From an uncultured Saprospiraceae bacterium (GTDB taxonomy: Bacteria > Bacteroidota > Bacteroidia > Chitinophagales > Saprospiraceae), in NCBI GenBank assembly GCA_937929885.1, contig CALFUQ010000225.1, positions 1 through 34,927 on the forward strand: a stretch of DNA of 34,927 nt, in the 5' to 3' direction. Positions 31,282 through 33,521 of this stretch are shown piece by piece. The notes beneath the pieces are model-generated. The model was given only the letters and a program-made list of their open reading frames with translations. It was not told the origin of the DNA and ran no database searches. Numbering within the stretch: position 1 is the stretch's first letter; each line of letters begins with the position of its first letter. The position numbers were made by a program, and so were the translations under genes.

Positions 31282-32790
31282 TTAGATTCTAAATTTACCC
31301 CCTAAGGTGAAGGAGAATGTATTGATTTGGTCATCATTAGGACCTAATTTATCACCAAAGAACTGATGATGATATCCAGCCTGCATGAATATTGATCGAT
31401 TATAACCAAGCTTCCTTTGTAGACCAAAGCCAGTATAAGAAGTGATAAATGCATTATCAAAAATATCTCCTTCTGTTCTGAATTCACTTGAGGATACAGC
31501 AGCAGTCTGATTTTTAAGTGTCTTGGGCTGGTCTATATTTTGTAATAATCCAGTGTAGTAAGTTCTTCTAAGAAGATCGGAATTTGCCTTTCTTCGAGTT
31601 CTTGAATTCCAAGTCCCACTAAGCAATACATCAGGCAAATCATAATCACTGTACATGATGAAATTGTGAGTGACTCCAAGCGATGCATAAGCACTCCACT
31701 TGTGATTATCTACCAAGTATCTTTTATAAGTTGCTGGTATCTGTGCTACGTGAAAAAGTATTCTATTAAGACTAGTCTGGTAAACAGTATTTGCAGACGT
31801 ATTTATAGAATTATCATTATTAATGGCATATACTTCTTTAAGTTCTGGATCATAACTTTTATAGGAGTATCCTAAACCTATTCCGTATTCATTTTTTCCA
31901 GCTTTCACACTATATCCAATAGAACTGGACACCCCAGCAGCACCTAATAATTTATCTCTCCCATTGATTAAAAAATTAGTGGGTGTATTTACAAGATTTA
32001 TATCTGCACTTGCAGAAAATGAAAACCATTTCTCGTTTCCTTTTTTCGCGAAAGCTGGGATAGTTAGTAATGATTCATATTGATCATCTAGACTATTGAT
32101 AGCTAGTAGTTCTCTTTCCGCTTGTTGTTTTTCTTCTTCTGTTACTAATTCTGATTGACTAACTACTTCGGTCTCCGAGATATCACCTTGTGTCACTACT
32201 TGGTTTAGAGCAACTAGTGGAATACTGATGTCTGATGCTTTATTAATACTTCGTGGTGGTGATTTCTTAAAGTGACCATTAGTAAGCGCATAAATCTTAA
32301 CCTCCTCTCTATCAAGGATAATTGGATTTAGTACATCAGGGCTATTAAAATTATCTTTAACGACAGCAGTCTTCTCTACTTCTTTAGCTAAGACTTGCTC
32401 AGCATCAATACTATTAAATATCTCAGAGTGAGCGTAAAGTGTAAGGTTTTTTCCTGGATCTTTGATTGGTTCTATCTGGAAGAAACTATAAGCGAGTAGT
32501 ACTAGGATGACTAACTCGATGATTTTAAACAAATAGATCTTATTTGTCAATTCATTCTCTAAATCAATTCTACTGCTAAGTTCTTGCCAGTGCTCTTCTT
32601 CGAAATCGAAGTTTACTTGATTTTGGATCTTATCTTTTATCTGCTGATCAAACTCTAAATCTGCAATCTCTTCCTCAGCCATCGCATTATCTAACTTCTG
32701 CTCAAACGAATCCCATGAAGCAGCATCGTAATTGATTTGCAGTCCCTCTAATTTTTCTTTTATATCCTTATCGAATTTCTTCTTCCCCAT
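31282..32790 (-). CDS. Probable trans-envelope anti-sigma-like protein with C-terminal beta-barrel-like domain
   Basis: A 502-residue protein encoded six bases after an ECF sigma factor. The N-terminal cytoplasmic part has two tandem repeats, residues 6-34 and 47-76, both reading F-D-x2-I-K-x-K then D and W-x-x-[FL] near the end, followed by one transmembrane helix (about 86-104). A polar linker of some 150 residues follows. The C-terminal 245 residues look like outer membrane strands (WFSFSASADINLV, SSIGYSVKAGKNEYGIGLGYSY, FMQAGYHHQFF, TFSFTLGGKFRI). The position and the helical repeats suggest an anti-sigma factor, though not of the usual zinc type. I do not recognise a named family. No signal peptide is present, so export of the C-terminus would depend on the internal helix. 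Confidence 0.7.
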   Translation of the reverse strand: MGKKKFDKDIKEKLEGLQINYDAASWDSFEQKLDNAMAEEEIADLEFDQQIKDKIQNQVNFDFEEEHWQELSSRIDLENELTNKIYLFKIIELVILVLLAYSFFQIEPIKDPGKNLTLYAHSEIFNSIDAEQVLAKEVEKTAVVKDNFNSPDVLNPIILDREEVKIYALTNGHFKKSPPRSINKASDISIPLVALNQVVTQGDISETEVVSQSELVTEEEKQQAERELLAINSLDDQYESLLTIPAFAKKGNEKWFSFSASADINLVNTPTNFLINGRDKLLGAAGVSSSIGYSVKAGKNEYGIGLGYSYKSYDPELKEVYAINNDNSINTSANTVYQTSLNRILFHVAQIPATYKRYLVDNHKWSAYASLGVTHNFIMYSDYDLPDVLLSGTWNSRTRRKANSDLLRRTYYTGLLQNIDQPKTLKNQTAAVSSSEFRTEGDIFDNAFITSYTGFGLQRKLGYNRSIFMQAGYHHQFFGDKLGPNDDQINTFSFTLGGKFRI

Positions 32791-32796
32791 TTAAGT

Positions 32797-33351
32797 TTAT
32801 GAGATATTCTTTTTTGCTAAAATGTTTTTCAGTTTCATCCTTGCTTTCACAAGATTGGAACGTGAAGTGCTTTCTGTGATGCCTAACATTTGCGCAACCT
32901 CTTTGTGGGGGTAACCTTCTATTACATACAAACTAAAGACAGATCGATATGCTGGAGTGAGCTCTTGCAAACAAGCCAAAATACCTTGAGCGCTAATTTG
33001 GCTCAGTACATCTGGATCAAATGATTGCAAATCATATGCTGTCTCTAGATCTTCCGTTCTTCTTCTTACCCGCTTTCTGTAGAAGTCAATCGCAGTGTTA
33101 ACCATGATACGCTTCATCCAAGATTTAAGAGATGTCCCAGCCTGGTACTTACTAATATTTTTCAGAACCTTAATAAAACCATCATGCATGATATCTAGTG
33201 CGTCCTCCTTATTATTGGAGTACCGCATACAGATACTTAGCATCTGGCTATAATGGTCTTCATACAGCTTTTTCTGAGCCCATTTTTCATTGCGCTCACA
33301 AGCCTGAATAAAATCAAGCTCCTTGCCATGTATATTAATAATAAAATCCAT
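32797..33351 (-). CDS. ECF RNA polymerase sigma factor
   Basis: A 184-residue extracytoplasmic-function sigma factor. Region 2 (about 25-97) has YSNNKEDALDIMHDGFIKVLKNISKY and LKSWMKRIMVNTAIDFYRK for -10 binding and DNA melting. Region 4 (about 128-178) has LTPAYRSVFSLYVIEGYPHKEV and LGITESTSRSNLVKARMKLK, the helix-turn-helix for the -35 element. It resembles the Bacteroidota RpoE-like group often paired with a membrane anti-sigma factor, and the next gene fits that place. The first codons (MDFIINIHGKELDF) come from an ATG; no clear sigma-A box lies in the 170-base gap to divergent parC, so it may drive its own promoter. Confidence 0.93.
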   Translation of the reverse strand: MDFIINIHGKELDFIQACERNEKWAQKKLYEDHYSQMLSICMRYSNNKEDALDIMHDGFIKVLKNISKYQAGTSLKSWMKRIMVNTAIDFYRKRVRRRTEDLETAYDLQSFDPDVLSQISAQGILACLQELTPAYRSVFSLYVIEGYPHKEVAQMLGITESTSRSNLVKARMKLKNILAKKNIS

Positions 33352-33521
33352 CCTCTTAAAAATAGCGCATTAATCTAGCTATCACAAGCACTTACGATAT
33401 TTAACGGATTGCTAACACGTTTTGCTGCCTAATTTATACTACCGATAATTCATATAAAATTTATCTTTTATTTATTTTAGCGCTGCTAATCAATACTAAA
33501 TGTATAATCCATTAATATAAT

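Follow-up and report, generated by a model that had tools for sequence, protein, structure and literature searches.

The window analysed here, a stretch of 34,927 nucleotides from a contig of an uncultured Saprospiraceae bacterium, carries, directly behind an ECF sigma factor gene, a reading frame whose product has a predicted outer-membrane barrel at its C-terminus. The question raised by this arrangement is whether a single polypeptide could join the outer membrane to a sigma factor. An earlier note, made from the DNA letters alone, had proposed such a bridge. Systems of the Dma kind have reportedly been known since 2024. The part of the source consulted presents Dma1 and Dma2 of Bacteroides thetaiotaomicron as dual-membrane-spanning bridges which repress the cognate ECF21 sigma factors Das1 and Das2, respectively (PMC13088901).

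Gene arrangement

The reading frame is located at 31282–32790 on the minus strand, is intact over 502 codons and has TFSFTLGGKFRI as its C-terminal end. Based upon the ORF, its AlphaFold2 model and its orthologs, we annotate the product as a Dma-like dual-membrane-spanning putative anti-sigma protein of 502 amino acids. Six bases upstream on the same strand is the gene for the cognate ECF sigma factor (184 amino acids; 32797–33351, minus strand), which matches TIGR02937 (106.7 bits), PF04542 and PF08281, and which the first of these types as a generic ECF. A parC/gyrA-like gene is divergent from the sigma gene, and the downstream ORFs are DUF547-like and MutS-like. Since the order of the parts is the same in the orthologs, the 502-residue ORF is not a reading-frame accident.

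Orthologs and distribution

The bridge protein diverges fast (18–25% identity over its length) and the sigma factor slowly (52–69%). Because of this fast divergence, no relatives of the bridge protein were found by a single-sequence scan of the genome contigs, and the ortholog loci were gathered via a sigma alignment instead; among them are loci of Portibacter and Flavilitoribacter, which have cultured members. Sigma orthologs (E<=1e-45) are present in 183 of 198 Saprospiraceae genomes, nearly always in single copy, and the partner gene lies directly downstream in 210 of 213 sigma loci, often with a start/stop overlap (the sigma-partner gap is -11 in 64 of 172). Loss of the partner was considered for the three exceptions and rejected: at L041 an assembly gap (100 N) falls in the partner gene, and the other two, L074 and L173, are short stretches at contig ends. 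A divergent parC lies upstream in 40 of 80 loci and a DUF547-like gene downstream in 21, a synteny which indicates one inherited locus.

Other families of the order possess sigma homologs at 42–51% identity, with partners of the same design. A repeat profile built from Saprospiraceae only matches 17 of 18 sister-family partners, mostly as one copy, although L151 and L158 have four each; PF13568 is matched (E<=0.01) by 15 of the 18. Among the 20 PF13568 proteins above about 380 amino acids that were fetched phylum-wide, 11 come after an ECF sigma gene. The source genome itself encodes, on contigs 9, 34 and 281 (L005, L007 and L135, respectively), other proteins in which a short cytoplasmic segment is followed by a transmembrane helix, a linker and a barrel-like C-terminus; those on contigs 9 and 34 directly follow their own ECF sigma genes, and the ORF on contig 281 begins at the contig end. 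The repeat profile was not significant on the distant Bacteroidota partners and the source-genome paralogs, and for this reason we make no claim that their N-termini are homologous to the repeat. Elsewhere in the examined genomes, many ECF genes are followed by single-transmembrane proteins of other kinds. No sigma/anti-sigma fusion of the Dma3 kind was present among the fetched loci, the long frames that were checked being upstream read-through.

Cytoplasmic repeats

Two related repeats had been noticed by eye at residues 6–34 and 47–76, and both were matched by an independent profile. This 29-residue profile (consensus FDdiikdkLenlevpynpshWdlleekLD) was built from 209 units, all of them from other genomes and none from the window. 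Repeat 1, a putative sigma-binding unit (residues 6–34; 32689–32775, minus strand), scored 36.2 bits (i-E 2.9e-13) and the membrane-proximal repeat 2 (residues 47–76; 32563–32652, minus strand) 18.0 bits (i-E 1.5e-7); the top score among 200 shuffled N-termini was 4.4 bits. The tryptophan of the membrane-proximal repeat, Trp68, is 99% conserved among the orthologs.

Across 172 distinct partners the profile detected from one to nine repeats, with two in 74, three in 59 and nine in one; a single partner scored zero. The position of the transmembrane helix tracks the number of repeats (r = 0.97, 38 residues per unit), and in these 172 proteins no repeat was found C-terminal to the helix. The longest cytoplasmic array is that of one ortholog (L072:2304-4628), with nine tandem repeats and a transmembrane helix starting near residue 341. 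Its adjacent units are up to 69% identical, which is a sign of recent duplication, and its model displays consecutive low-confidence helices and then a confident barrel. A tentative and rather doubtful reading is that the array is a multivalent sigma store holding one sigma factor per 29-residue unit, so that one chain tethered to the outer membrane would hold one to nine of them; their number, shifting quickly through tandem duplication, would then set the threshold and the size of the transcriptional burst that follows triggering of the bridge. Two barrel-less, sigma-adjacent transmembrane proteins, L335 (G071) and L337 (G092), also seem to carry tandem copies of short motifs, and duplication of sigma hooks may thus extend to other types of anti-sigma factor.

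Candidate sigma contact

The couplings between sigma factor and partner were calculated from 169 pairs by the mean-field method. The top inter-protein coupling joins sigma residue 52, in region 2.2, to partner residue 67, which directly precedes the conserved tryptophan of the membrane-proximal repeat, and it lies above six shuffles and twelve barrel-column controls. On the sigma tree Met, Gln, Lys or Arg was gained at position 52 on 14 independent occasions, 14 of 14 with a residue other than His at position 67, a pattern that did not arise once when the placements were randomised 20,000 times. All nine sequences with Lys or Arg at sigma 52 have Asp at 67, and they belong to one clade. Since both the pair, one among about 13,600, and the grouping of residues were chosen after seeing the data, we grade the covariation as suggestive and the two residues as a candidate contact site. 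Beyond the first one or two in the ranking, the N-terminal coupling scores resemble those of the barrel controls, so only the 52–67 pair is used, with caution.

Pairing and coevolution cannot separate inhibition from activation. The repeats might be chaperones or activators of the sigma factor (pro-sigma, like some FecR proteins), in which case loss of the protein would silence the regulon, and FecI-dependent transcription is indeed activated by pieces of FecR that are 61 or 81 residues long (PMC9249621). We regard this as unlikely, since the deletion phenotypes of Dma1 and Dma2 require the cognate sigma factor, which, in the part of that source consulted, points to a repressor in the described relatives (PMC13088901). 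An anti-sigma role for the repeats is thus preferred in what follows.

Transmembrane helix and linker

The single transmembrane helix that the earlier note had predicted was recovered: the sole hydrophobic segment comprises residues 85–103 (mean Kyte-Doolittle 2.21) and is helical in the AlphaFold2 model, in which the helix extends over residues 65–106. From hydrophobicity, the model and conservation, the membrane-spanning part is placed at about residues 85–106 (32473–32538, minus strand). In the 172 partners the count of flanking Lys and Arg is 4.55 on the N-terminal side versus 1.81 after the helix, the former side being richer in 157 and poorer in seven; by the positive-inside rule the repeats are cytoplasmic and the orientation is N-in/C-out. 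Few residues of this fast-evolving protein are as conserved as Lys89 (93%) and Glu92 (96%), which lie where the helix begins on its cytoplasmic side (32515–32526). A charged pair within the membrane hints at a dedicated function, for example in intramembrane proteolysis or the pairing of helices, and these two residues may help to determine intramembrane cleavage or the binding of a partner.

The periplasmic linker, residues 107–252 (32035–32472, minus strand), is mostly disordered as judged from pLDDT and its length distribution, with pLDDT below 50 at residues 114–216 in the AlphaFold2 model, the input alignment of which contained 78 homologs. Early estimates of some 150 linker and 245 barrel-like residues proved right (about 146 and 250, respectively). 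Despite the range of one to nine repeats, the linker in the orthologs has a median of 163 residues and a 5–95% range of 125–198. In a one-repeat protein (L238) the apparent linker is just 24 residues, probably through misplacement of the barrel start by the profile.

A long and disordered linker would also suit constitutive cleavage of the chain behind the transmembrane helix; the barrel would then be an outer-membrane protein of the usual kind and the cytoplasmic part a separate anti-sigma factor, with no standing bridge. This is quite unlikely: a lipobox after the helix occurs in none of the 172 proteins and a strict A-x-A motif in only nine, and a linker kept at 125–198 residues in 90% of the orthologs despite sequence divergence would be needless if it were cut. 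The preferred reading is that of a chain which is not cut constitutively and runs from the cytoplasmic repeats to the barrel.

C-terminal barrel

Structure prediction, which had been put forward as the check on the barrel-like C-terminus, gave a confident eight-stranded outer-membrane barrel fold rather than a soluble periplasmic domain. The predicted barrel comprises residues 253–502 (31285–32034, minus strand), as assigned from AlphaFold2, Foldseek and the PF13568 matches of the family. Its strands, mostly with pLDDT above 90, are at residues 253–269, 280–297, 300–313, 343–361, 365–384, 447–460, 465–479 and 487–501. The turns on the side of the N-terminus have 2–4 residues and the opposite loops about 10, 29, 62 and 7; since the linker joins the barrel on the periplasmic side, the long loops would point out of the cell. 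Foldseek matched the barrel to OmpA, Ail, NspA, OmpX and OmpW (E 1e-8 to 3e-5). The Pfam scan of the window protein itself gave no barrel match, and none above the gathering score for PF13568, but this family is matched at E<=0.1 by 60 of the 78 sequences in the ortholog alignment. A barrel profile matched all 167 full-length partners, 78 of these same proteins having been used to build it. The final residue in the orthologs is often non-aromatic, unlike the textbook beta-signal. A sequence profile search of the PDB yielded chance matches only, and these were rejected. At 31300–31475 (barrel residues about 439–497) are two conserved motifs with the consensus sequences G-L-x-E-G-G-x-F-x2-N-x-Y and G-x-G-P-N-x-D-R-I, both in or beside predicted extracellular loops; they could represent a ligand or partner site.

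Anchoring in the inner membrane could hinder insertion by BAM, but a barrel that never reaches the outer membrane, being instead a soluble or inner-membrane periplasmic beta-domain in a purely periplasmic signalling scheme, is very improbable in view of its eight strands, its 2–4-residue turns on the N-terminal side with loops of up to about 60 residues opposite, and its matches both to genuine outer-membrane barrels of known structure in the PDB and to Pfam families of such barrels.

Promoter and possible regulon

An ECF-type promoter of the sigma–anti-sigma operon, GCAGC-N17-CGTT, was located at 33403–33428 (minus strand), 51 bases ahead of the sigma gene, its motif and spacing being shared upstream of most orthologs. 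In 79 regions upstream of the sigma gene both elements occur in 66, with a spacing of 17 bases in 60 and 16 in five; the reverse-strand control gave 0 of 79. A conserved bipartite promoter of ECF form upstream of the sigma gene implies autoregulation. The strict pattern occurs at eight sites in the source genome versus four in the control, and at 49 versus 45 in seven other genomes; with no enrichment beyond the sigma operon, the regulon either has few members or uses sites of looser sequence. A few intergenic GCAGC-N17-CGTT sites off the sigma operon (L359 in the source genome; L370, L378 and L381) precede genes for exported proteins, which by eye appear macroglobulin-like, lipoprotein-like, PorP/SprF-like and barrel-like. 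An envelope regulon is possible and these sites are a lead only, their totals not being above the control.

Proposed mechanism

With an outer-membrane barrel fold at one end and repeats encoded beside the cognate sigma gene at the other, homology and topology as read from sequence support the bridge of one chain which the earlier note had suggested. In our judgement this gene very probably encodes a Dma-type regulator of the adjacent ECF sigma factor. Architecture, orientation, barrel fold, sigma pairing and conserved promoter come directly from the computation, and we infer that the repeats bind the sigma factor and that the protein is inserted in both membranes simultaneously.

In the absence of a signal, the N-terminal helical repeats would hold the sigma factor at the inner membrane, at least via its region 2.2. 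The single helix would cross the inner membrane and the disordered tether of some 145 residues the periplasm, with the barrel in the outer membrane and its long loops exposed to the exterior. A signal, perhaps the binding of a ligand to the loops or a fault or change in barrel assembly, would pass from the outer membrane through the tether to the cytoplasm. The change in the tether might open the linker to proteolysis, followed by intramembrane cleavage, or might exert a pull, and in either case the sigma factor would be freed; proteolysis is the route favoured here, as a guess and a somewhat doubtful one. Free sigma would then transcribe its own operon from the GCAGC-N17-CGTT promoter, together with further genes.

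Comparison with known systems

As in FecI-FecR-FecA, an event at the outer membrane is proposed here to act on the regulator of an ECF sigma factor, a regulator that is itself anchored in the membrane. There, a TonB-dependent receptor and FecR are separate proteins in contact, whereas in the window protein the barrel and the putative sigma-binding part are one chain. Neither a FecR domain (Pfam and NCBIfam scans of the window protein) nor a TonB-dependent receptor among the neighbouring genes was found, and the contrast drawn in the earlier note with a relay of TonB receptor, anti-sigma factor and protease was a fair one.

With class I anti-sigma factors (RseA, RsiW, ChrR type) the protein would share cytoplasmic sigma-binding helices, putative here, and does share a single transmembrane helix and a gene 3' of that for an ECF sigma factor. 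Unlike them, it matched no anti-sigma domain model in the Pfam and NCBIfam scans. A class I domain is found nearby for 6% of Bacteroidetes ECFs versus 32% overall (PMC7406223), and the bridge architecture may explain part of this gap. The barrel of the family resembles OMP_b-brl_2, as the PF13568 matches (60/78 orthologs) indicate; most PF13568 proteins in the phylum listing have about 200–300 residues and are too short for a cytoplasmic part, a transmembrane helix and a tether.

The closest likeness is to the Dma family, and it is one of architecture, set against what the consulted part of the source describes for the B. thetaiotaomicron Dma proteins. Common to both are an N-terminal sigma-binding domain (putative here), one transmembrane helix, a long disordered tether, a C-terminal beta-barrel, a gene beside that of an ECF sigma factor and a host among the Bacteroidota; the single helix, tether, barrel and adjacent sigma gene were all found in the window. 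Unlike Dma, the family described here has tandem 29-residue units in one to nine copies among its orthologs (the consulted part of PMC13088901 describes no repeats in Dma proteins), and the window locus is near-core in the Saprospiraceae, lies beside parC and has a conserved promoter. The bridge kind of system is itself already known, and the idea of one chain has its precedent in Dma1 and Dma2, as described in that part of the source. Within the literature consulted, what is new is the variable tandem array of putative sigma hooks, the near-universal presence of the locus in the Saprospiraceae, the conserved promoter and the candidate contact site. The Dma design, work on which has until now concerned gut Bacteroides, is represented by a near-core, vertically kept locus of the Saprospiraceae, found also in sister families, which offers both a testable sigma contact and a testable promoter. 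Its natural series of one to nine putative sigma hooks on otherwise equivalent tethers provides a route to the meaning of anti-sigma copy number.
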